Shown here: positions 2,617 through 14,259 of the stretch, one piece after another | Numbering within the stretch: position 1 is the stretch's first letter | How the letters are laid out: each line of letters starts with the position of its first letter | NCBI GenBank assembly: GCA_009827225.1 | Contig: WUAI01000032.1 | Span: forward strand, 1-38,277 | Reading direction: 5' to 3' | Length of the DNA: 38,277 bases | Origin: Flavobacteriaceae bacterium | Lineage (GTDB): Bacteria > Bacteroidota > Bacteroidia > Flavobacteriales > Flavobacteriaceae | Position numbers and translations under genes: made by a program | The notes under the pieces: model-generated | Databases searched by the model: none | What the model was told of the DNA's origin: nothing | The model's input: only the letters and a program-made list of their open reading frames with translations

Positions 2617-3517
2617 ATAGTAGATTTTCTATTGCTTTTTCAAGATTGACATATTCAAATCGATAACCACTTTCTTCTATTTTAGAAGCACTCACCAGCT
2701 GACTTTCCAAGACCAAAGATGCCATTTCTCCCAACATAAGTTTCAGTACGAACGACGGAACATTTGGCAACCACAAAGGCTTCTTAAGATGTGAAGCAAT
2801 TACTTTTGTCATTTTCTTGTTGGTAACCGGACCTCCGCACACCCCATTGAATACCCCTTCCTGTCTTGACTTAAGAAGATGCAGGTAGATTCCAGCTATG
2901 TCAGAAATATGGATCCAGGACTGCCATTGATCTCCACTTCCTAAAGCAGCGCCCATTCCCATTTTTATGGGTTTTACGATTTTCTCCAGAGCACCACCTT
3001 CCGAAGACAACACAATTCCGGTCCTCACGATACTCACAGGAATATTCAGTTTGCTAAAGTCATAGGCAGCCTTCTCCCATTCCACCACAACCTGGGCGAG
3101 AAAGGATTCTCCGGCTGTATCATATGATTCGTCGTATAGCTTGGTTTTAGAACTAGGATAAAAGCTAATGCCACTGGCAGAAATATAATGGGATACCGAA
3201 TGATCCATTTTCGCAAGTGAATCTCTTATCACCTGTGCTGTTTGAAGTCGGCTTTGAAGAATGATTTCTTTATAGGCTTTGGTCCATTTTTTGGAAACCG
3301 TGGCCCCGGCAAGATTGACAATAGCTGTCACACCATCGAATGCTGCAAGATCGATTTCGCCCGAGGTTGGGTTCCAATAAAATCCCTTTGCTCCTTCAAT
3401 ACTGTCCAGTTGGTTCTTTCTTGTCGATAAGAAATGTACCGGAATACCGGATTCATGGCATTGAACGATGATTTCCTTGCCAATCAACCCTGTAGCACCG
3501 GCAATTAATACTTTCAT
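2615..3517 (-). CDS. TIGR01777-family NAD(P)-binding epimerase-like protein
   Basis: 300-residue protein of the extended short-chain dehydrogenase/reductase superfamily (TIGR01777, E. coli YfcH-like). The N-terminal Rossmann motif GATGLIG (7-13) supplies GxxGxxG. Further family landmarks are VNLAGA, SASGISFYPS around the catalytic-type region, and a C-terminal DUF1731-like segment (PLWLPNVPSFVLKLMLGEM). The substrate of this subfamily is not established. It converges with the YceI gene over a shared terminator. No upstream partner is on the same strand within 90 bp. Confidence 0.9.
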   Translation of the reverse strand: MKVLIAGATGLIGKEIIVQCHESGIPVHFLSTRKNQLDSIEGAKGFYWNPTSGEIDLAAFDGVTAIVNLAGATVSKKWTKAYKEIILQSRLQTAQVIRDSLAKMDHSVSHYISASGISFYPSSKTKLYDESYDTAGESFLAQVVVEWEKAAYDFSKLNIPVSIVRTGIVLSSEGGALEKIVKPIKMGMGAALGSGDQWQSWIHISDIAGIYLHLLKSRQEGVFNGVCGGPVTNKKMTKVIASHLKKPLWLPNVPSFVLKLMLGEMASLVLESQLVSASKIEESGYRFEYVNLEKAIENLL

Positions 3518-3613
3518 TTTAGCTGCAATTTTTCGTAAAGGTAAGTTCCTGAAAACGAATGAACAGGGTTATTAACTCGAAATTGGGAAGATAAGACCGC
3601 ATTTAACTACAAA

Positions 3614-4297
3614 TTAAGGAAGCATTTTGGTTGCTCTTAACATTTCACGTTTCCCCGGAGGACCCGGAATTCGCTCCACTTTAAATCCCGCCGCCTGCAT
3701 GGCGCGCCTTACACTTCCTTTGGCCGAATAGGTAGTCAACACACCCGGATTCTTCAACGCCTTGAACATGTTATGGAAAATTTCTTCCGTCCAAAGATCA
3801 GGCTGCACTCTGGGTCCGAAGGCATCAAAATAAATAATGTCATATTGTTGTACTGCTGAAATTTCAGAAAAAAACATCTTCGACTTTTTAAGATGAAATC
3901 GATCTGAAATCTGCGCCTCTTCTTCCCAGGGAGTGGTATGTAAATTCAGAAATAATGATTCCGAAGCACTCAGCAATTCAGCATAATTCAGCTTTTCTAC
4001 TTCCGCCATTTCTACCGGATACGCCTCGATTCCGTGGTAATGAATTGGAACCTTCAAATGTGAAGCAAGCAAAGCACTTAAAAAAGCGTTTAGGCCGGTA
4101 CCAAAGCCAACCTCAAGGATATGTATCTGTGAAGAATCCTCTCCAGAATAATTATTGAGAAAATGTTCCAGTCCACTTTGAATGAAAACATGTTTCGCTT
4201 CATTCAAGGCGCCGTGTTTAGAATGATATTGTTCGTTCCATTCCGGGAGATGAATGGTATAGGAGCCGTCTCCCGTTTTAAGGAACTCGCGTTTCAA
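3614..4297 (-). CDS. mnmD: tRNA (5-methylaminomethyl-2-thiouridine)(34)-methyltransferase, MnmD type
   Basis: 227-residue stand-alone version of the methyltransferase half of MnmC, acting on the wobble uridine of tRNAs. The N-terminal motif YTIHLPEWNEQYHSKHGA is diagnostic of the family. The SAM-binding loop is LEVGFGTGLNAF, and YFDAFGP is a conserved active-site strand. The FAD oxidoreductase half of MnmC is absent, as is usual for MnmD. The start codon is TTG, one base after the TAA of the upstream DUF4920 gene, so translation is probably coupled. No alternative ATG precedes the conserved N terminus. Confidence 0.92.
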   Translation of the reverse strand: MKREFLKTGDGSYTIHLPEWNEQYHSKHGALNEAKHVFIQSGLEHFLNNYSGEDSSQIHILEVGFGTGLNAFLSALLASHLKVPIHYHGIEAYPVEMAEVEKLNYAELLSASESLFLNLHTTPWEEEAQISDRFHLKKSKMFFSEISAVQQYDIIYFDAFGPRVQPDLWTEEIFHNMFKALKNPGVLTTYSAKGSVRRAMQAAGFKVERIPGPPGKREMLRATKMLP

Positions 4298-4298
4298 C

Positions 4299-4817
4299 TT
4301 ATTGTTTTTCAGGGATTAACACACCGTGAGACAAGAAGGATAAAGATAACTCGGGCTCGGTAATGGCATCAATTTCTTCCTGGGTTTTTCCGGCGTCTTC
4401 GGCAAAGTGCTTCAAATCTTCAACGCTGGTTTCCTCCACGAAGGCTTTCCCGGCAACGATCACATCCTGTCCGGCGATATCTTTCGGCATGAAGAAGCCA
4501 TAATCCTTAAATCTAACAAAAGACTCCTTGTCGCCCATATTGAGTCGCATCCAGCATCCTTTATTCTGGCAAACACTGTTTACTTCCGAAGTAAACTTTA
4601 CATCCACCGTATCGCCCAACTTCATTCCCTGGTATTTTTCCATCATTTCGTCCTTTGACAATACACCTTCATCGTTTATTTTTTCTCCAAAAGAAGTATA
4701 AGCGTCCTGGGTTTCCATTTCATTTTGGTTTTCGGCAACTTCCGTATTTTCTTCGTTGTTATTTTTACAAGCGAAAAGTACGGCCACAATCATTGATAAG
4801 TATAGAATTTTCTTCAT
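4299..4817 (-). CDS. DUF4920 lipoprotein
   Basis: 172-residue exported protein. The signal peptide ends at a lipobox (VAVLFAC, Cys17), followed by an Asn/Glu-rich linker and a DUF4920 domain with the characteristic CQNKGCWM cysteine motif and VRFKDYGFFMPKD. Family function is unknown. The paired cysteines and OB-like strand pattern suggest metal or redox binding, which is inference. It is directly upstream of mnmD and divergent from ilvE, with the ilvE promoter in the gap. Confidence 0.88.
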   Translation of the reverse strand: MKKILYLSMIVAVLFACKNNNEENTEVAENQNEMETQDAYTSFGEKINDEGVLSKDEMMEKYQGMKLGDTVDVKFTSEVNSVCQNKGCWMRLNMGDKESFVRFKDYGFFMPKDIAGQDVIVAGKAFVEETSVEDLKHFAEDAGKTQEEIDAITEPELSLSFLSHGVLIPEKQ

Positions 4818-4896
4818 GTGATTAGAAATTTGAGTAGAATTATAATATACTGCAATTTTATGAAATTTTTAGATTTTAAATGGTCTAAATTTTGCC

Positions 4897-4904
4897 TAAT
4901 TTTG
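4897..4904 (+). promoter_or_regulatory. -7 element of the ilvE promoter
   Basis: TAATTTTG is a perfect TAnnTTTG, 17 bp upstream of the ATG at 4922. It overlaps the only alternative upstream start (TTG at 4892), which is thereby excluded. Confidence 0.6.
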
Positions 4905-4921
4905 ACCCGAAATACAATTCT

Positions 4922-5992
4922 ATGAGCCTGACCACCACACCTGTAATCTCTGTTGAAAAAACCAGTCAATCGAAAATCGAGAATGTAGATTTTAGCAACC
5001 TGGTATTTGGCAAGGTGTTTACTGATCATATGTTTGAGTGCGAATTCAAGAACGGGCACTGGCAAAATGCCAGTATTCGGCCTTATGGTCCGTTGGAAAT
5101 TGATCCTTCGGCCAAAGTATTTCATTACGGGCAGGCCGTATTTGAAGGCATGAAAGCATATAAGGACGAAGACGGTTCTGTCTTTTTATTCCGCCCTGAC
5201 GAAAATATAAAACGTATCAATCGCAGTTCGAAACGACTTGCGATCCCTGAATTCCCGGAAGAATTATTTTTCCAGGCGTTGCATCAATTGATTGAACTGG
5301 ATAAAGAGTGGATCAAACCGGGCCTAGGTAATTCCTTATATATTCGTCCTTTCGTGATCGCAACCGAAAATTGCGTTTCGGCCTCCCCTTCCGATTCCTA
5401 TAAATTCATCATTATCCTCTCCCCGGCGCAGGCCTATTATACTGGAGAGGTGAAAGTGGTATTTGCTGAAAAATACAGCCGTGCCGCCGACGGTGGTGTG
5501 GGATATGCCAAGGCAGCCGGGAACTATGCGGCTCAATTCTATCCTACTAATTTGGCTAAAGAAAAAGGATTTCAGCAGGTGGTTTGGACCGATGCCAATG
5601 AACACAAATATCTGGAGGAAGCGGGAACCATGAATGTATTTTTCAGGGTGAATAATACCCTGCTCACCGCCCCTACCAACGACCGAATTCTTGACGGGGT
5701 AACTCGTAAAAGTGTGATTGCGTTGGCGAGAAGAAATGGTGTGGACTTAGAAGTACGGCCGGTAACGGTTGACGAGATTGTGACCGCTGCAAAACAAGGT
5801 CATCTTAAAGAAATTTTTGGAGCCGGAACTGCCGCTGTGATTAGTCCGGTGAGTGGGTTTAGTTATAAGGATATTACCTATGACTTACCGCTACAGGAGG
5901 ATTCATTCGCCGCCAAATTCAAAAAGGAGCTTACCGAAATACAGCACAATTTGGCTGAAGATCCCTTTGGATGGCGCTATAAGGTGATGTAA
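4922..5992 (+). CDS. ilvE: Branched-chain amino acid aminotransferase (class IV)
   Basis: 356-residue PLP enzyme catalysing the final transamination in Leu/Ile/Val synthesis and the first step of their breakdown. Visible features are PLEIDPSAKVFHYGQAVFEGMKAY-type substrate-loop sequence, the PLP lysine K197 in YAKAAGNYAAQ, the EEAGTMNVFF strand and the GAGTAAVISPV phosphate-binding loop. Length and motifs fit the eukaryote/Bacteroidota BCAT type. The start at 4922 is chosen because the longer frame begins inside the promoter. It ends 2 bp from the stop of the converging gene (TAA-TA-TTA). Confidence 0.96.
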   Translation: MSLTTTPVISVEKTSQSKIENVDFSNLVFGKVFTDHMFECEFKNGHWQNASIRPYGPLEIDPSAKVFHYGQAVFEGMKAYKDEDGSVFLFRPDENIKRINRSSKRLAIPEFPEELFFQALHQLIELDKEWIKPGLGNSLYIRPFVIATENCVSASPSDSYKFIIILSPAQAYYTGEVKVVFAEKYSRAADGGVGYAKAAGNYAAQFYPTNLAKEKGFQQVVWTDANEHKYLEEAGTMNVFFRVNNTLLTAPTNDRILDGVTRKSVIALARRNGVDLEVRPVTVDEIVTAAKQGHLKEIFGAGTAAVISPVSGFSYKDITYDLPLQEDSFAAKFKKELTEIQHNLAEDPFGWRYKVM

Positions 5993-6767: not shown

Positions 6768-6785
6768 ATACCCGGTAATGGGTAT
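6768..6785 (+). promoter_or_regulatory. Palindromic operator site 1 (upstream of protease/TCS operon)
   Basis: ATACCC-GGTAAT-GGGTAT is a perfect 6-bp inverted repeat with a 6-bp spacer. Counting 22 bp from its right edge gives GATTTTTA (6808-6815), in register with the -7 positions at the two other copies. The operon's first ATG is at 6830. Confidence 0.75.
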
Positions 6786-6829
6786 GTTTTGGTAATGGAT
6801 ATTAATTGATTTTTACAAAAATTTGAATT

Positions 6830-7156
6830 ATGAGTGATCAAACACCTACCAAAGTAACCGCAGCCCAAATGTTAGTGATCGCAATGGTCATCTTTGTAGG
6901 GCTATTTCTTTATTTGGCTCTTGCTCCCAACAATAGCATGAGCGACGATTTGAAGCGACTAATAAGAGTTCTAACCGCATTAGCAGCTGGGGCGGTGAGT
7001 ATGTCATTGTCTGGAACTATTAATGTTGGAACACAGGAAAACAATGTTCAAACAATGGCTGAGAAAGCGCCCAAAATTACTGCTGCTGGATCGCTTGCGG
7101 TTTTTGTACTTGTTTATTTGGTGGATCCTTTACGCCAGGCAGCTTCAGAAGAATAA
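6830..7156 (+). CDS. Small membrane protein, first gene of the protease/two-component operon
   Basis: 108-residue protein with a short polar N terminus, a strong helix at about 14-31, a weaker Ala/Gly-rich helix at about 45-62 (LTALAAGAVSMSLSGTI) and a C-terminal helix at about 85-101. The order RxLTALAAGA, a loop, then GSLAVFVLVYLVDP resembles a membrane module I associate with various uncharacterised signalling or effector proteins, but I cannot name a family. Its TAA overlaps the ATG of the protease gene (TAATG). Membrane tethering or sensing for the protease is inference. Confidence 0.72.
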   Translation: MSDQTPTKVTAAQMLVIAMVIFVGLFLYLALAPNNSMSDDLKRLIRVLTALAAGAVSMSLSGTINVGTQENNVQTMAEKAPKITAAGSLAVFVLVYLVDPLRQAASEE

Positions 7157-8247
7157 TGACAGAAGATAAGGCACATAATACTCTGGAGGATTTCATCAAA
7201 AAAATGAAGGCCCCTGATAGCAATATCAGTTATGCCGCTATCGTCGCGGATCCTTTGGATGTAGAAAACTTCATTATTGAATATGGAACGTATGACGCTG
7301 GTGGCGGATTTTATTTTGAAACCGAACTCAATGATCAACAAACTGAAGATTTCAAAAACGAGCTTTTCTTGGAGTATGGCCTAAAGGAAAACACCAAGGA
7401 TTTCCGATCGGTTGTCACAAACTCTTCTGAAGGAAAATTGCTAAATCACCATCCTCTAAAGGAAAAAATAAGACCTCTTAAAGCAGGTATAAGCGTAAGC
7501 GATTTACGCTCAATTATGAAGTCCGGAACTTTAGGAATCCTTTTTTCGGTGCAAGAAAACACGAAAACCTATTTGTTGTCCAATATGCATGTTCTTGCAT
7601 ATTATAAAGAGGAAGCAGGAAGTTCTCTGAATCCTAAGAAAGAACAAGAAGAAATTGTACAACCGTCACGAAGCGACTCAGCAAATATAAATTACGAAAA
7701 CAGTCCATTTATAATAGGTAAAACAGTATGGAAACGATTTGATGGAATCATTGATGCAGCTGTCGCAGTGCTTTATAATGACGTAGTAAGTCTCGGAGGT
7801 TTTTTTAATGCCGAAATAGAACTAAACCCTTTTATTTACACACGTCTTAAATTGAATCGAACCGTAATAAAATACGGTCGTACTACAGGATTGACCGACG
7901 GTAAACTTATTTCAGTTAACGCTGCTATCAGGCTTGAAAACCCATATCCAACGGTGAATAGAGAAGGAAAATATATGGTCTTTACCGACCAGATCATGAC
8001 TTCGAATATGGCAGATCCTGGTGATTCCGGCAGTCTGCTAATCGACGAACAAAGAAAACAAGGCATTGGACTAACTTTTGCCGATATCAATTTCAACGAC
8101 AAAGCTTTATTATCACATAAAATTCGAAATTTTGACCCTCCAGGAAGGACCTTCCATAATAAACTTCAAAATATTATAACCGCTCTAGAAAAGGGCGATA
8201 ATTACGATGGTAACTCCCATCCTTTACATTTCAACCAATTTATTTAA
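7156..8247 (+). CDS. Trypsin-fold serine protease-like protein with intact triad
   Basis: 363-residue protein without a recognisable signal peptide. A roughly 110-residue N-terminal region of unknown fold precedes a chymotrypsin-fold domain. The triad can be placed as H145 (LSNMHVLA), D200 (DGIIDAAVAV) and S291 (DPGDSGSLL). The intervening YGRTTGLTDGKL stretch resembles Nal1-like and other intracellular trypsin-like proteins. Catalysis is therefore plausible; the substrate is unknown. It is translationally coupled to the membrane-protein gene before it and followed by an unknown gene, a histidine kinase and a response regulator, so a role in signal generation or an envelope/defence response is possible. 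GC content is lower than in flanking genes. Confidence 0.82.
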   Translation: MTEDKAHNTLEDFIKKMKAPDSNISYAAIVADPLDVENFIIEYGTYDAGGGFYFETELNDQQTEDFKNELFLEYGLKENTKDFRSVVTNSSEGKLLNHHPLKEKIRPLKAGISVSDLRSIMKSGTLGILFSVQENTKTYLLSNMHVLAYYKEEAGSSLNPKKEQEEIVQPSRSDSANINYENSPFIIGKTVWKRFDGIIDAAVAVLYNDVVSLGGFFNAEIELNPFIYTRLKLNRTVIKYGRTTGLTDGKLISVNAAIRLENPYPTVNREGKYMVFTDQIMTSNMADPGDSGSLLIDEQRKQGIGLTFADINFNDKALLSHKIRNFDPPGRTFHNKLQNIITALEKGDNYDGNSHPLHFNQFI

Positions 8248-8263
8248 ACTAAAAACAATTAAA

Positions 8264-8746
8264 ATGGCAGTACACGATCATCAACTAGCAGATAATGACA
8301 GAGCCCCTTTCAATTTCATTGATCACGGAGATTTTGAACTCGAAATGGCATGTACCAAATGGACGCGAAAAAAATCACCGATAATTGAAGAAACATTCTA
8401 TTTTGAAAATAGTCAATCGGGTAAACACATTAAATTAGTCAAGGCTATTTTATGCGATCCAGTCAATGAAACGGACCCGGATATCAAAAAACACCTGGTA
8501 CTATTTGTCCAAGAAGTGTCAAGTCCACCGGCTTCAACCTCATTAACACAACATATTACTATGAATATGGGGTTTCGAGACGAGTATAGAAAAGTTGTGG
8601 TGAGATATTTTTTGAATGAAAATATGCCAGGCGAAGATCAAATAGACTGTGCACTTTACAAAGAAATAGTAGAATCGGATAATTACCACAACGTCGTGGG
8701 AATTATTCCCGACACCAATAATGGCGGTATAATTATAAAGGTCTAG
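8264..8746 (+). CDS. Unknown protein between the protease and kinase genes
   Basis: 160-residue soluble, acidic protein with no signal peptide, no transmembrane helix and no family I recognise. It is rich in beta-type segments (GKHIKLVKAILC, HLVLFVQEV, YRKVVVRYFLN) and ends in GGIIIKV. An in-frame ATG at 8207 would overlap the protease gene by 41 bp. The ATG at 8264, preceded by an A-rich stretch, is preferred. Its TAG overlaps the GTG start of the kinase (TAGTG). It may be the protease substrate or a ligand-sensing partner, but that is only positional inference. Confidence 0.75.
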   Translation: MAVHDHQLADNDRAPFNFIDHGDFELEMACTKWTRKKSPIIEETFYFENSQSGKHIKLVKAILCDPVNETDPDIKKHLVLFVQEVSSPPASTSLTQHITMNMGFRDEYRKVVVRYFLNENMPGEDQIDCALYKEIVESDNYHNVVGIIPDTNNGGIIIKV

Positions 8747-10527
8747 TGCGGTTAGATCTAAAGAAAATATTTCAGATGCTTATCCTGACCGTATTATCGG
8801 TCGGGATTTTGCAGTCACAAGAATTATATTTTCCTGATCTGGATACACTCACCATACAACGCAACTTACTCGGTTTGCATGAATCACTCAAAAAAATCGA
8901 TACGACCGATTTAAAACCCAGAGAAAAAGCTGCCTACTATTATTACTCAGGCTCGGTTCTGTATTTTGAAGATAATAATGAGGGAGCCATTGAATATCTA
9001 CTTCGAAGCAAGTCCATTCTCAATGAGTTTTCTGAAGATGAAAGATTCGTTTTCAATTTAAATGACAGACTTTTGGAGGGAATCGGCTCCACTACAGAGT
9101 ATTCAGTTCGACCTCAAGAACTGATCGAAGAAAATTGTCGAATTGCGTACAATCTAAATGATCCTACTTTTTTGTATAACTGCTATTATTATCAATACGC
9201 AGATGCATTAGATAATAAAAAATATGAACAAGCATTGAATCTAATGAACCAGGCTATGGAGGTGGTAAGCAATGGGAGTTCACCGAATCTTGTAGCGAAT
9301 TTACAGTCCAACATAGGACATACGCATTTGAATCTGAGAAATCTTGATAGCGTGCTCCCGAATTATCAAAAAGCTGAGAAGTATTATCTCCTGGTAAATG
9401 ATGAATCAAAGCTTGCTTATCTATACAATAATTACGGTAATTACTATAAAATCATCGGTGATTTTGAACGTGCACTGGATTATCTTTTAAAGGCCTATGA
9501 CTATCGTTTAGATCAAGAGGAAGCGTCCACCAAGAACTTTATCTTAAAGAACATTGCAGACACCTATTACTTCAATGGTGAATTTGAAAAAGCAGCACTT
9601 GCTTACGAAACCTTTGCAAAAAAATCAGATAGTCTGGATAGAGCCGACCATGCAAAGAAGATTCAATACTATAATACCAAATACCAAACGGCCGAAAAAG
9701 AAAAGCAGATCCTAGTCGAAACCCAAAAGAAAAATCAGAATAAAAATATAGCCCTGGCCCTCGGCGGCGGCCTCCTGGCCGTTAGCATCTTCGGATTTCT
9801 TATCTACAAAAACACCAAACGCAAACAACGCATCGCCGAACAAGAACGGGAACTGGAAATCCAGAAAAAGGAAAAGATCCTCAAAGAGCAGGAACTCAAT
9901 GCCATCGACGCCATGATCGAAGGACAGGAAAAAGAACGGCAGCGTCTGGCCAGTGATCTGCACGATAGTGTGGGTGCCACTTTATCCGCGGCTAAGCTTC
10001 AGTTTGATCATTTGGCCAAAAACAAAGACAAACTCACCAGCCTGGAAGAACTATTCGAGAAAACCGGCAATCTGCTGGATGAAGCCTATACAGAAGTTCG
10101 CTCCATGGCCCACCTCAAAAATAGTGGGGTGATTGCCAAGAAAGGTCTGCTACCTGCGGTCGAGAAACTGGCCAAAAATGCCAGTACGCAGCAGGGACTT
10201 AAAATTGAAGTACAGGACTTCGGACTTACAGAAAAACTGGAGGCCTCGCTGGAGATCTCCATCTTCCGAATCATCCAGGAACTGGTGACCAACATTATCA
10301 AACACGCCCATGCTTCCGAAGCGAATATATCGATCACTCAACATGAAGATACCCTGAGTATAATTGTGGAAGACGACGGCCGCGGATTCGATCCTCGTGC
10401 GATGCATGATTCCGAGGGAATGGGGCTGGGAAGCATAGAAAAAAGAGTAGAACACCTGGAAGGAACGATGGAGGTAGACTCCACCCCGGGCAAAGGAACC
10501 AATATTTTAATCGATATACCAATATGA
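8746..10527 (+). CDS. TPR-containing sensor histidine kinase (HisKA_3)
   Basis: 593-residue hybrid of an exported sensor and a cytoplasmic kinase. A signal peptide (1-24) is followed by tetratricopeptide-like repeats to about 300, a coiled segment, a transmembrane helix (ALALGGGLLAVSIFGFLIY, about 333-352), a second coiled coil, a HisKA_3 domain with phospho-acceptor H406 (ASDLHDSVGA), and an HATPase domain with N516 (ELVTNIIKHA) and VEDDGRGF. It should phosphorylate the response regulator whose ATG overlaps its stop (ATGA). The start is GTG. Base composition changes abruptly near 9750, between the AT-rich sensor half and a GC-rich membrane/kinase half, suggesting a chimaeric gene. Confidence 0.95.
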   Translation: MRLDLKKIFQMLILTVLSVGILQSQELYFPDLDTLTIQRNLLGLHESLKKIDTTDLKPREKAAYYYYSGSVLYFEDNNEGAIEYLLRSKSILNEFSEDERFVFNLNDRLLEGIGSTTEYSVRPQELIEENCRIAYNLNDPTFLYNCYYYQYADALDNKKYEQALNLMNQAMEVVSNGSSPNLVANLQSNIGHTHLNLRNLDSVLPNYQKAEKYYLLVNDESKLAYLYNNYGNYYKIIGDFERALDYLLKAYDYRLDQEEASTKNFILKNIADTYYFNGEFEKAALAYETFAKKSDSLDRADHAKKIQYYNTKYQTAEKEKQILVETQKKNQNKNIALALGGGLLAVSIFGFLIYKNTKRKQRIAEQERELEIQKKEKILKEQELNAIDAMIEGQEKERQRLASDLHDSVGATLSAAKLQFDHLAKNKDKLTSLEELFEKTGNLLDEAYTEVRSMAHLKNSGVIAKKGLLPAVEKLAKNASTQQGLKIEVQDFGLTEKLEASLEISIFRIIQELVTNIIKHAHASEANISITQHEDTLSIIVEDDGRGFDPRAMHDSEGMGLGSIEKRVEHLEGTMEVDSTPGKGTNILIDIPI

Positions 10528-11150
10528 TCACAGTGGCTATTGCAGAAGACCATCAATCGTTAGTGGATGGAATCAACTTATTGTTGAAATACGAAGAAGA
10601 AATATCCGTAGTAGGAACTGCGAATGACGGAGAGGCCCTTCTGGATATTGTTCGGTTGAAACAACCTAAGGTGGTACTCACAGACATCAAAATGCCCAAA
10701 ATGGATGGGATCACTGCCACGCGTATCATCAAGAAGGAACATCCTACCATTAAAGTGATCGCATTCAGTATGTTCGATCAGGAAGATGCGGTATCTCAAA
10801 TGCTGGATGCCGGGGCATCCGGATATCTTCTTAAAAATTCACCTCTGGAAGAAGTACTAAATGCCGTTCAAATTGTGAGTCGGGGTGGCACCTATTTCGA
10901 TGCCTCTATCGACATGGAATCGATTCAGGAAGTTTCAGAAAAAACCAAAGAAAAACCAATCCTCTCCAAAAGTGAACGCGAAATCCTTCGCTTGATAGGC
11001 GAAGGTAAAACTACCAGTGAGATCGCAAATATCCGATTCACAGCAGTTTCCACAGTGGAAAAACATCGTAAGAATATGATTCGCAAGCTGGGACTTTCCG
11101 GTAAAGGAGAATTGCTTCGATACGCGCTGGAACGCAAATACGATTTTTAA
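10524..11150 (+). CDS. LuxR/NarL-family response regulator
   Basis: 208-residue two-component regulator. The REC domain has acidic residues after IAEDHQ, phospho-acceptor D54 (LTDIKMPKMDG) and the conserved lysine in YLLKNSP. The C-terminal LuxR-type HTH runs from about 148 (LSKSEREILRLIGEG through VEKHRKNMIRKLGLSGKGELL). The gene overlaps the kinase stop by 4 bp, so they are a cognate pair. NarL-type regulators bind short inverted heptamers, and the local TACCC/GGGTA palindromes fit that style. Autoregulation is the simplest inference, as one palindrome lies before the operon and another directly follows this gene. Confidence 0.96.
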   Translation: MITVAIAEDHQSLVDGINLLLKYEEEISVVGTANDGEALLDIVRLKQPKVVLTDIKMPKMDGITATRIIKKEHPTIKVIAFSMFDQEDAVSQMLDAGASGYLLKNSPLEEVLNAVQIVSRGGTYFDASIDMESIQEVSEKTKEKPILSKSEREILRLIGEGKTTSEIANIRFTAVSTVEKHRKNMIRKLGLSGKGELLRYALERKYDF

Positions 11151-11161
11151 CCTTCTAAATT

Positions 11162-11179
11162 ATCCCCTGAAACGGGTAT
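11162..11179 (+). promoter_or_regulatory. Palindromic operator site 2 (upstream of LuxR-type HTH gene)
   Basis: ATCCCC-TGAAAC-GGGTAT differs by one base from the perfect palindrome. Exactly 22 bp separate it from a -7-like TACTTTTA (11202-11209). The ATG of the HTH gene follows at 11214, so the leader would be very short. Confidence 0.75.
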
Positions 11180-11213
11180 TTTCCTGGCTACTCCCCGGAC
11201 GTACTTTTACGTC

Positions 11214-11597
11214 ATGAGTACCTTAGATCAAATTATCCGAATCATTGCAACCGCCAAACAGAATAAAGTTCGACTCAACCTGGACGATACCCTTGCTGTT
11301 TTCGAAGCGGTAAAGCACATATCTACCGACAAAAAACTTATCGAAAAGGCCATACACATGGTCTTTCAAGTTCAACAGAAAAAAACTCACATTCAGAGTC
11401 TCACCAAAAGAGAAAATGAAATTTTTCAACTTATCGGTCTCGGGTTTTCTTCTCGCGAAATAGGGCGGTTCATTTCCATTTCAGAAGCTACTGTGAGCAC
11501 GCATCGAAAAAAAATCATCCAAAAGTTGAACCTGTCCGGTGCAGGTGCGTTGCAAAAGACAGCGTATCAATTTGCCCAATCTCAGCTCAGCAAATAA
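11214..11597 (+). CDS. Stand-alone LuxR-type HTH regulator
   Basis: 127-residue protein. A helical N-terminal region of about 60 residues has no receiver-domain signature (no phospho-acceptor Asp motif) and no family I recognise. It is followed by a LuxR HTH (LTKRENEIFQLIGLGFSSREI to RKKIIQKLNLSG). The HTH resembles that of the adjacent response regulator, including an LSGxG end, so both could recognise the same palindrome. It has its own promoter and operator. It may act as a modulator or competitor of the response regulator, which is inference. Confidence 0.88.
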   Translation: MSTLDQIIRIIATAKQNKVRLNLDDTLAVFEAVKHISTDKKLIEKAIHMVFQVQQKKTHIQSLTKRENEIFQLIGLGFSSREIGRFISISEATVSTHRKKIIQKLNLSGAGALQKTAYQFAQSQLSK

Positions 11598-11598
11598 T

Positions 11599-11616
11599 AT
11601 ACCCTGCATCGGGTAT
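11599..11616 (+). promoter_or_regulatory. Palindromic operator site 3 (upstream of OMP/lipoprotein genes)
   Basis: ATACCC-TGCATC-GGGTAT is a perfect inverted repeat. It lies exactly 22 bp before TACTTTTG (11639-11646), a consensus -7 element. The palindrome therefore sits over the -33 region, centred roughly 40 bp upstream of the expected start, the usual place for a class II activator. Confidence 0.8.
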
Positions 11617-11638
11617 TTTCTCACCCTGATCCAGCCTA

Positions 11639-11646
11639 TACTTTTG
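11639..11646 (+). promoter_or_regulatory. -7 element of the outer-membrane protein gene
   Basis: TACTTTTG matches TAnnTTTG. No good TTTG is seen at the normal -33 position; the operator abuts it instead, as expected for an activator-dependent promoter. Confidence 0.65.
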
Positions 11647-11675: not shown

Positions 11676-12329
11676 ATGAAACCTCTCAAGATTCTGCTTC
11701 ATTGCCTGGTGATCCTGTTTTTCTTCGGAAATGTGAGCCATACGGTATTCGCACAGGAGCAAGACGGGATTCCTGCGGTATCAGGAAATGTTGAAACCGG
11801 GGAAAGTGTGAAACCGTTACGAATAGGCTTCAAGATTGGTGCGCCTTCTGTGTTTACATTAAATGCAGAATACCTAACGCCACTCCTTGACAATCGCGTA
11901 TCGGTCGCTCTGGATTACTTTCCTCTGAGTGCCAATATAGATGACATCGAGCTGAAACTAAACAATTTCGAATTCGGATCGAACGTCTATTTAAACAATA
12001 CCGGAAAAGGATTGTACGGTGGTATCAGTTACTTCAGTTTCAGTGCTGATGCCGATGTGATCGACGTGGATTTTGATGATGGGACTTTCGGAGATGGTAG
12101 CACCTCCTTGAAATTCAATACCCTCAATGTAAAGATTGGTGGCAAGTTCGGCAAAACCTTCTATTTCAGAATTGAAGTTGGATATGGCTTTGGAAGTCTG
12201 CCGGATGAACTTGTAATCAATGCCAAAAACACGAACGCCAGTACCACAGAACCTATTGAAGACATCAGTGTATTGTCTTCTTCCGGAGTGCCTTTATTCA
12301 ACTTCGGAATAGGATTCGGATTTCTATAA
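11676..12329 (+). CDS. Exported outer-membrane beta-barrel-like protein
   Basis: 217-residue protein with a signal peptide ending near AQA/FAQ (about 26). The mature part consists of alternating amphipathic strands (LRIGFKIGAPSVFTLNAEY, GGISYFSFSADADV, TLNVKIGGKFGKTFYFRIEVGYGFG) and ends in FNFGIGFGFL, with the terminal aromatic/aliphatic pattern of an outer-membrane barrel. No specific family is recognised. It is preceded by a perfect operator and followed 22 bp later by a lipoprotein gene, so it is probably a surface-envelope target of the neighbouring two-component system. Confidence 0.78.
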   Translation: MKPLKILLHCLVILFFFGNVSHTVFAQEQDGIPAVSGNVETGESVKPLRIGFKIGAPSVFTLNAEYLTPLLDNRVSVALDYFPLSANIDDIELKLNNFEFGSNVYLNNTGKGLYGGISYFSFSADADVIDVDFDDGTFGDGSTSLKFNTLNVKIGGKFGKTFYFRIEVGYGFGSLPDELVINAKNTNASTTEPIEDISVLSSSGVPLFNFGIGFGFL

Positions 12330-12351: not shown

Positions 12352-13449
12352 ATGATTAAATTAAAATACCTTTTCGCAACGCTGTTCCTTTTCGGGATGA
12401 TATTCACCTCATGTGAAACTGAGGAAGAACCTGAAGAAGAAGAACAGGAAGTCATCGAAGTAAATGAAGTATCCATTATCCCTTCATCCACTTCAGGAAG
12501 ACCCAATCAAAAATTGGGTTGTATTGAAATTAGCAGTCGAATTACCACCATCCAGGTATGGGATCATGGGCAGATCGACGGTGATATCGTTTCCATTTAT
12601 GCAAACGGAGCGACATTGATCAACCAACAAACTTTAGCCGGACCCGACAGTCCGATTACCGTGGATTATGATTTTGGCTTTAATGGCTTCAACTACGTGA
12701 CCTTATTCGCCCACAACCTGGGAGATATAGCTCCGAATACGTGTACCATAGCTATTAATGGTGTGGAATTCGTTTTAGAAGCGAATCTTGACACTAATGG
12801 ATCCATCGACGTCATCGTATCCGGTTACGGAGTGGATTGTAGTAGCTCAGGTAACGGTGGAGGCAATGGTGGCGGCTCCGGTGGTGGAGGAAATGGCTCC
12901 AATACCGGCGATCTTGTTTTCTGGACGCAAAGCGATCTGGGTTGCGGCCCTATTAATGTCTCGCTTAACGGAGTAGGTAGCACCAATATAACCGGGTTCT
13001 TTTCCGGTGGAGCTCCAGACTGTTCCAATAACAGCGGTGGCGGGAATTTCAACGATCTGGCACCCGGCACTTATTCGTTTACGGCAAGCTGCTCCACCCT
13101 TAACTGGAATGGTACTGTGACCATACAGGAAGGTGTTTGTACCCAGCAAGAGCTCCTCGGCGGAGGTGGAGGCGGCGGTGGCGGCGGAAGTGGCACCGGA
13201 GATGTAAAATTCTGGATCAATCAGGACTTTGGCTGTGGCCCTATCGATGTGAATGTGAGCGGCGCAGGAAGTTCCACGATCACCGGATTTTTCCAATCTG
13301 CGCCTCTATGCGACAATAGCAATGGTGGTGGAAACTTTAATAACCTGCCCGTAGGAAGTTATTCTTTCACAGCTAGTTGTTCCACGCTCAGCTGGAATGG
13401 AAACTTTAATATTACCGAAGACGGTTGTCTACAATTTCAACTAAACTAA
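12352..13449 (+). CDS. Lipoprotein with Gly-rich linkers and duplicated Cys-containing domain
   Basis: 365-residue exported protein. The signal peptide ends at lipobox Cys21 (IFTSC), followed by an acidic tether (EEEPEEEEQE), an N-terminal beta-rich domain (to about 163), a Gly/Asn/Ser linker (about 164-187), repeat A (about 188-268), a poly-Gly linker (about 269-283) and repeat B (about 284-365). Both repeats share FW-x4-D-x-GCGPI, TGFF, GGGNFN-x-L, SYSFTASCSTL and WNG, with conserved cysteines that could form disulfides. The architecture looks like a multivalent cell-surface binding protein; function is unknown. It is co-directional with the barrel protein gene 22 bp upstream. Confidence 0.82.
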   Translation: MIKLKYLFATLFLFGMIFTSCETEEEPEEEEQEVIEVNEVSIIPSSTSGRPNQKLGCIEISSRITTIQVWDHGQIDGDIVSIYANGATLINQQTLAGPDSPITVDYDFGFNGFNYVTLFAHNLGDIAPNTCTIAINGVEFVLEANLDTNGSIDVIVSGYGVDCSSSGNGGGNGGGSGGGGNGSNTGDLVFWTQSDLGCGPINVSLNGVGSTNITGFFSGGAPDCSNNSGGGNFNDLAPGTYSFTASCSTLNWNGTVTIQEGVCTQQELLGGGGGGGGGGSGTGDVKFWINQDFGCGPIDVNVSGAGSSTITGFFQSAPLCDNSNGGGNFNNLPVGSYSFTASCSTLSWNGNFNITEDGCLQFQLN

Positions 13450-13563: not shown

Positions 13564-14259
13564 ATGTATAAACAAGTAAACTCGCTACTGCTTCTTTGTT
13601 TTGTAGCTCTCCTCGCAACTTCCGGCTTAGCCAACAATGCCGTAGAAGATTTTGGGAAAAAACGTATTGATCTTGGTGTTTCTGAAGCAGACGCCGAAAT
13701 AAATGTAAATGGTAGGTTGATCGGGAAAGGATCCGCAGAGATTACCGTACCCAAAGAAAGCTGTGTCACTGTGATCGTTAGAAAAGTTGGTTACTTAACT
13801 GAAAAGATCGAATTCTGTAACAAACGCGGAATGTCCAGCCCACCAAAAAGTTACTACATCGAAATGAAAAACGACGATGCCTACGATGCTTCAATTCAAA
13901 CGGATATCGCAAATGTGGATATCGAACTCATCGTAGATCAAATGGACAAAGATACTGCCTGGAAACTGATCAACCAGATCGTACTGTCGTATATCGATGT
14001 GATCGAGATGACCGATAAGGAAACAGGGTACTTGCGTACGGCCTGGTCGCTCAAGGCGTTCAAACAAAATACGGTTCGTACCCGTATAATTATCAAGGAA
14101 TCTTCGACCGACCCACTTGTTTTTAAAGCCAAGTTAGTAAGTGAGTCTTCAGGAAGTGCCCTCACGAGTGTGAAGAGCGACGAGCTTTATAAAGAATGGG
14201 ATCGTGTTTTGAGAAGTTATTCGGATGTGATCTCCGAATTTCAGGCTCGCATAAAATAA
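13564..14259 (+). CDS. Exported protein with PEGA-like domain
   Basis: 231-residue protein with a signal peptide (about 1-23). The early mature region (about 35-85) has the PEGA-like pattern of an ADAEINVNGRLIGKGSAEITV start, then a GYLTEKIEF end. The C-terminal half is mixed alpha/beta (DTAWKLINQIVLSYIDVIEM) with no known family. The last helix carries EWDRVLRSYSDVISEF. It is possibly an envelope-associated component; function is unknown. It follows the repeat lipoprotein on the same strand after 114 bp that contain only a hairpin, and it ends at a bidirectional terminator. Confidence 0.75.
   Translation: MYKQVNSLLLLCFVALLATSGLANNAVEDFGKKRIDLGVSEADAEINVNGRLIGKGSAEITVPKESCVTVIVRKVGYLTEKIEFCNKRGMSSPPKSYYIEMKNDDAYDASIQTDIANVDIELIVDQMDKDTAWKLINQIVLSYIDVIEMTDKETGYLRTAWSLKAFKQNTVRTRIIIKESSTDPLVFKAKLVSESSGSALTSVKSDELYKEWDRVLRSYSDVISEFQARIK

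Follow-up and report, generated by a model that had tools for sequence, protein, structure and literature searches.

Palindromic sites at a fixed distance from -7 boxes suggest NarL-type autoactivation of a two-component operon in Flavobacteriaceae

Introduction

What is the role of a repeated palindrome around a two-component operon of a Flavobacteriaceae bacterium, and which protein would bind it? The question is raised by contig WUAI01000032.1 (GenBank assembly GCA_009827225.1), of which positions 1 to 38,277 of the forward strand, hereafter the window, were analysed. An 18-bp palindrome, ATACCC-N6-GGGTAT, precedes there an operon for a protease-like protein, a histidine kinase, and a NarL/FixJ-type response regulator (RR), as well as a small LuxR-type gene and a pair of genes for exported proteins. 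An earlier note on this DNA had described the three copies as a local regulon with sites in a class II activator position, and had proposed the RR as the binder, making the circuit autoregulatory. Our comparative analysis makes it highly probable that this NarL-family RR activates its own operon in a class-II-type manner, together with the targets described below.

Results

The palindrome in the window and in the genome

All three palindromes are present in the window, with 0, 1, and 0 mismatches (Table 1), and exactly 22 bp separate them from the -7 boxes GATTTTTA, TACTTTTA, and TACTTTTG, respectively. In F. psychrophilum the -7 box lies at -12 to -5, according to the consulted part of PMC9723704; the palindrome would therefore span -52 to -35, with its centre at -43.5. 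Thus, the site abuts or overlaps the position of the upstream promoter element at one conserved distance from the core box, in agreement with the class-II-like position proposed earlier. For F. johnsoniae, the section of PMC7366714 consulted states that no -33 element could be identified.

At up to two mismatches, four matches to the palindrome were detected in the window against 1.08 expected, and one of 100 shuffles reached four. These statistics are modest, describing a moderately unusual pattern, and the analysis was therefore widened to the genome and the family. The fourth match (2145–2162, two mismatches) lies within a YceI-like gene (1900–2568) and is probably due to chance. The statement that the window holds no further copy is therefore correct at up to one mismatch and fails at two.

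Across the source genome, five exact palindromes were found and none in the reversed control. All five had a -7-like box (at most one mismatch to TANNTTTR) 22 bp away on one strand, the background frequency of such a box being about 1.4% per position. With one mismatch allowed, the palindrome occurred 18 times (5 in the control); nine of these copies had the spaced -7 box, with at most two mismatches in all, and the nine without it look more like chance copies. When palindrome, fixed 22-bp gap, and -7 box were searched together, there were 18 matches against 5 in the control at up to three mismatches, and 11 against 1 at up to two. The genome-wide search proposed in the earlier note hence gave spaced copies and not many intragenic ones at random spacing. 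The term local regulon proved too narrow, since spaced sites are located on other contigs and the regulon is genome-wide.

Conservation of the spacing

The spacing was assessed in 299 genomes of the family by searching for the exact palindrome followed by TANNTTTG at any gap of 10–40 bp. This search gave 61 pairs in 39 genomes, with one match in the reversed control. The gap was 22 bp in 51 of the 61 pairs (50 of 60 without the row of the source genome); the remaining gaps were 21 bp (3), 23 bp (3), and 17, 25, 38, and 40 bp (one each). A phylum-wide sample of 296 genomes contained 20 pairs in 11 genomes, with gaps of 21 bp (9), 22 bp (6), 23 bp (1), and 13, 14, 33, and 40 bp (one each). Two of these 20 pairs belong to the family (G000 and G190), and outside it the gap of 21 bp was commoner than that of 22 bp. 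In other families of the class, 21 bp often replaces 22 bp, as in G468 (five sites), G415, and part of G400 and G511.

Linkage of the sites to the response regulator

RR orthologues (E ≤ 1e-48 to the 208-aa protein of the window) were found in 65 of the 299 family genomes. Exact sites were carried by 26 of these 65 genomes and by 13 of the 234 genomes lacking an orthologue (Fisher p 6e-11, odds ratio about 11; tallied by hand from two listings), and some of the 26 carry the exact site away from the RR gene.

For the analysis of gene neighbourhoods, 75 RR loci were collected: 57 from the family listing, the window, four from congeners (G003, G005, G007, and G008), six from a set of 60 relatives (G001, G010, G018, G020, G027, and G034), and seven named loci (Mesonia, Lacinutrix, Winogradskyella, Cellulophaga, Leeuwenhoekiella, Flavobacterium, and Psychroflexus). 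Left out were G262 (short contig), G026 (44% identity), G004 (contig ending in the RR gene), and the named locus L260. A spaced site was present upstream of the RR gene or just after it in 60 of the 75 loci and in none of them in each of ten shuffles, which demonstrates conservation at orthologous operons. Upstream sites, defined by position as 1.5–6 kb before the RR gene and not by a locus-by-locus check of operon structure, were found in 46 loci (47 under a motif with a free -12 base), sites just after the RR gene in 43, and both in 29. The 22-bp gap was observed in 101 of 123 pairs overall: 39 of 50 upstream, 33 of 40 just after the RR gene, and 29 of 33 elsewhere. The N6 centre and the linker between palindrome and -7 box vary among these sites.

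Among the 299 genomes, all 17 with an RR at least 71% identical to that of the window had a site near it. When loci of ±1.5 kb were compared, a site was detected in 33 of 39 RR loci and in 2 of 18 loci of other LuxR-type genes; the raw control count was 5 of 24, before removal of six loci that are RR orthologues or neighbours of one (L055–L058, L069, and L076). The palindrome/-7 arrangement was also seen beside other GerE-domain genes in genomes with no detected RR orthologue, namely at L171 (G160), L207 (G029), and L208 (G266).

The response regulator as candidate binder

The RR contains Response_reg and GerE domains, both above cut-off (6.5e-27 and 1e-12, respectively). Its residues D9 and D54, which we take to include the phospho-acceptor aspartate of the receiver, are invariant in 13 aligned sequences, that of the window included. 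The closest solved structures are LiaR/VraR (5hev, E 1.9e-30), DesR, and NarL, and the closest NCBIfam model is MctR (170 bits, below the cut-off of 300). LiaR/VraR and MctR belong to other phyla and other promoters. The curated NarL model (NF007935) gave 102 bits, below its cut-off of 250. The palindromic word consists of inverted heptamers with a 2-bp gap and TACCC half-words, i.e., it has the NarL 7-2-7 geometry. Conserved spacing, RR linkage, co-occurrence, and this geometry all point to the RR as an autoregulatory binder, as had been proposed; exclusivity is not supported by the comparison, because 13 of the 234 genomes without an RR orthologue bear the exact word with its -7 box. Therefore, other LuxR-type regulators may use the word as well.

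The base at -12

The -7 box before the operon differs at -12 from the full box (Table 1). For this comparison, sites were selected by a -7 box score that left the base at -12 free. The 47 upstream sites had G (18), C (16), T (10), or A (3) at this position, G or C making up 34 of 47, whereas T predominated both just after the RR gene (34 of 37 sites) and among the other sites (30 of 32). The bias of the upstream sites against these two groups was strong (Fisher p 3e-11 and 6e-11, respectively). Rows with G and C are mixed on the RR tree, with at least ten G/C changes among the 34 rows on a weakly resolved topology (34 of 72 inner branches open), and the -12 state is therefore not one inherited letter. 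A base other than T probably reflects low basal activity of a self-activating promoter. The T row of G007 stems from a site behind the first gene; ahead of that gene there is a weaker palindrome, with C at -12.

The small receiver-less LuxR-type gene

The ATG of the small LuxR-type gene lies 4 nt after the -7 box in G000, G003, G004, G005, G007, G104, G314, and G317, and 5 nt after it in G008, so transcription is predicted in these nine genomes to begin at the A of the ATG or at the nucleotide next to it. A leaderless mRNA is therefore predicted; such mRNAs make up 5.5% in F. psychrophilum, according to the part of PMC9723704 consulted. The -7 box before this gene is irregular in G236, and a distant homologue in G172 lacks the 4–5-nt arrangement.

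The left arm of the palindrome at this promoter reads AT(C/T)CCC in all six members of the genus with the gene (G000, G003, G004, G005, G007, and G008), which appears to be a weaker half-word of the genus. Outside the genus, it reads ATCCCC in G104, ATACCC in G314 and G236, and GTACCC in G317. In three congeners (L080, L082, and L083), GGGGTATG follows the -7 box directly; it contains a GGGTAT half-word that overlaps the start codon and might serve as a second contact or as a brake.

The GerE domain of the protein has a TVxTHRK helix invariant in ten aligned members. Matches stronger than E 1e-30 were confined to the genus (six genomes, the source genome included) among the 60 relatives, and members at 35–50% identity were found in G104, G314, G317, and G236. 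In the AlphaFold model, the GerE domain is preceded by three N-terminal helices (mean predicted local distance difference test score, pLDDT, 80; N-terminal blocks 65–73). A structure search with this model yielded general GerE matches alone, none at E ≤ 0.001. The protein may act as a co-activator, a competitor, or a brake.

Operon and target genes

The features of the locus are listed in Table 1. In the 363-aa protein, the residues H145 and D200 and the GDSG motif are invariant in 11 aligned sequences, and its fold matches S. griseus protease B (E 2e-10) and Nal1 (E 3e-9; model pLDDT 72.5). Although its catalytic triad is kept, this protein diverges far faster (22–45% identity) than the RR encoded in the operon. 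In G008 (L081, 3210–9200), a second kinase-like match (3210–4970) and a further spaced site (5056) separate the kinase/regulator pair from the genes on the protease side.

The homologue of the 217-aa protein in G004 directly follows a site; those of G003 and G005 come after a site-preceded homologue of the 231-aa protein. Homologues of the 231-aa protein directly follow a site in G003, G005, G145, and G293. Homologues of the 365-aa protein occur downstream of the RR gene in 11 of the 75 loci, the window included (G000, G003, G005, G104, G107, G109, G145, G232, G263, G293, and G314). In this exported protein, a repeat with Cys and Gly residues occurs twice (WTQSDLGCGPINV... and WINQDFGCGPIDV...). 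No match above the curated Pfam and NCBIfam cut-offs was found for the 108-, 363-, 179-, 217-, and 231-aa proteins, and PADLOC gave no match for them at E ≤ 0.01.

On other contigs, spaced sites with at most one mismatch in all stand before genes for an exported 498-aa protein (C30), a 168-aa protein resembling lipoproteins (C79), and a Cleaved_Adhesin protein that carries a type IX sorting tail (C58). Sites with two mismatches precede genes for exported proteins on C15 and C75; matches of this grade on C25 and C31 were left out of the regulon listing. Export was judged by eye from the N termini.

Table 1. Palindromic sites, -7 boxes, and genes of the locus (positions in the window)
Feature	Position	Strand	Remarks
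Palindromic site 1, ATACCC-N6-GGGTAT	6768..6785	+	0 mismatches; predicted -52 to -35
-7 box GATTTTTA	6808..6815	+	G, not T, at -12; predicted start 6820
108-aa protein, first gene of operon	6830..7156	+	homologues in several other RR loci
Trypsin-fold protease-like protein, 363 aa	7156..8247	+	H145, D200, GDSG (Ser291)
179-aa protein	8207..8746	+	no family match
TPR histidine kinase (TPR, HisKA_3, HATPase_c)	8746..10527	+	domain matches
NarL/FixJ-type response regulator (receiver + GerE), proposed binder	10524..11150	+	domain matches
Palindromic site 2, ATCCCC-N6-GGGTAT	11162..11179	+	1 mismatch
-7 box TACTTTTA	11202..11209	+	predicted start 11214 = A of ATG (127-aa LuxR-type gene)
127-aa LuxR-type helix-turn-helix protein, no receiver domain, predicted leaderless mRNA	11214..11597	+	GerE match
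Palindromic site 3, exact	11599..11616	+	0 mismatches
-7 box TACTTTTG	11639..11646	+	predicted start 11651
Exported 217-aa protein, outer-membrane-like by eye; putative target gene	11676..12329	+	behind site 3
Exported lipoprotein-like 365-aa protein; putative target gene	12352..13449	+	second behind site 3
Exported 231-aa protein	13564..14259	+	no site directly before gene in window

Discussion

Proposed mechanism and alternatives

According to the mechanism that we propose, a dimer of the phosphorylated RR would bind the 18-bp palindrome, a NarL-style 7-2-7 site (TACCC-N6-GGGTA) centred near -43.5. The bound RR, beside the -33 position and partly over it, would aid a sigma-A-type polymerase at the TAnnTTTR -7 box 22 bp downstream. 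Through such sites it would activate its own protease/kinase/regulator operon, the gene for the small receiver-less LuxR-type protein, whose mRNA is predicted to be leaderless, and genes for exported envelope proteins, both nearby and elsewhere in the genome. The weakened -12 position at the operon promoter would make the feedback loop strictly activator-dependent, while the targets have a full -7 box.

Several observations weigh against this mechanism. By the criteria used, 15 of the 75 RR loci have no nearby site; their RRs are at most 63% identical to that of the window, and G117 and G254 have little or no upstream DNA. In a scan of named genomes, the matches listed include at least eight family loci, five of these eight with sites (80 loci were kept, 8 of the family; the rest were distant RRs and were not used). 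The exact word with its -7 box is present in the 13 family genomes without an RR orthologue. A GerE gene lies within 4.5 kb in only 21 of 62 tabulated site rows, the others being unlinked in the surrounding DNA. A spaced site with at most one mismatch in all precedes ruvB (C13), an odd and doubtful target. Finally, the half-site wording differs with the RR recognition-helix class (ATACCC in 62 of 72 against 56 of 124 cases); this correlation would speak for the RR as binder, but it is confounded by phylogeny and we do not lean on it.

The binder might instead be chiefly the small LuxR-type protein, with the RR acting elsewhere. Its gene is flanked by sites and its GerE domain has the invariant helix; however, short GerE-only open reading frames occur in only 14 of the 75 RR loci, 46 site-bearing loci have none, and its strong matches are restricted to the genus, whereas the sites are spread far wider. 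In G001 and G020, the RR and exact sites are likewise present with no orthologue of the 127-aa protein. The RR is therefore the likelier binder, and a leading role of the small protein seems unlikely. We attach more weight, though still well short of an even chance, to the word being shared by several competing NarL/LuxR-type regulators, the small one included, with the RR dominating only at its own locus. Sites in the 13 genomes lacking the RR, some beside other GerE genes (e.g., in G266, G160, and G029), speak in its favour, as do perfect spaced sites within about 1.3 kb of LuxR-type matches in G009, G029, and G048. The enrichment of exact sites in genomes with the RR and the difference between RR loci and other LuxR loci in the ±1.5 kb comparison argue against it.

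Even less is expected of the palindrome as a repressor operator through which the regulator would shut off its own operon. Operators tolerate varied positions, whereas the palindrome keeps a single distance upstream of the core box; a weakened -12 at the own promoter would also be expected where a promoter depends on an activator, not where it is repressed. A precedent exists in the repression of frdA by NarL, whose sites there are close to the start point, as given in the part of PMC4549865 consulted. An RNA hairpin, as a terminator or in a leader, would suit site 2 and many other copies that closely follow the stop codon of the RR gene, a possible terminator position. The word is found before the operon too, and at promoters unlinked to it; its gap to a -7 box is mostly 22 bp, and the N6 centre and the linker are variable. 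A hairpin is therefore very improbable. Activation by the RR remains our preferred explanation, and we regard it as a real, widely kept architecture of NarL type in Flavobacteriaceae, presumably operated by a known kind of regulator.

Comparison with known systems

NarL of Escherichia coli is similarly a regulator with receiver and GerE domains that uses inverted TACCC-type heptamers 2 bp apart, 16 bp overall. An engineered high-affinity NarL site known from co-crystals and gel shifts, TACCCCTAAAGGGGTA, fits the palindromic word; the same excerpts place the E. coli 7-2-7 sites at -40/-49 (napF) and -38/-47 (yeaR) (PMC4549865). By our own arithmetic, these upstream sites are centred at about -44.5 and -42.5, respectively, compared with -43.5 here. 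The present system differs from NarL in its TPR kinase, in a -7 box of Bacteroidota type, in the single rigid spacing, and in the weak -12 position of its own operon promoter. FimS/FimR of Porphyromonas gingivalis is also a Bacteroidota two-component system, in which the response regulator directly activates a gene for a surface protein, according to the text consulted (PMC1974823). The NCBIfam model of FimS weakly matches residues 157–370 of the window kinase (35 bits, cut-off 600). The targets differ, and no FimS/FimR word or spacing is given in the consulted text of PMC1974823. An open-access literature search (titles and abstracts, top-ranked results) returned no description of the motif, the regulon rule, or the two promoter features, and a search with the motif letters returned mostly microbiome and primer-type papers.

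Implications

The base at -12 invites a more speculative proposal, which we put forward tentatively. A base other than T may have been selected repeatedly, so that the loop is silent until the RR is phosphorylated, while the targets have full -7 boxes; the small LuxR-type protein, made from the predicted leaderless mRNA, might then bind the same or relaxed half-sites independently of phosphorylation, locking in or damping the response. In the family, the NarL-type word and its position would be kept together with a promoter of Bacteroidota type. The bias at -12 of the self-activating promoter makes the avoidance of leakage in autoactivating loops directly testable. The word, the 22-bp gap, and the -7 box would constitute a regulon rule readable from sequence, by which targets may be predicted from flavobacterial genomes.

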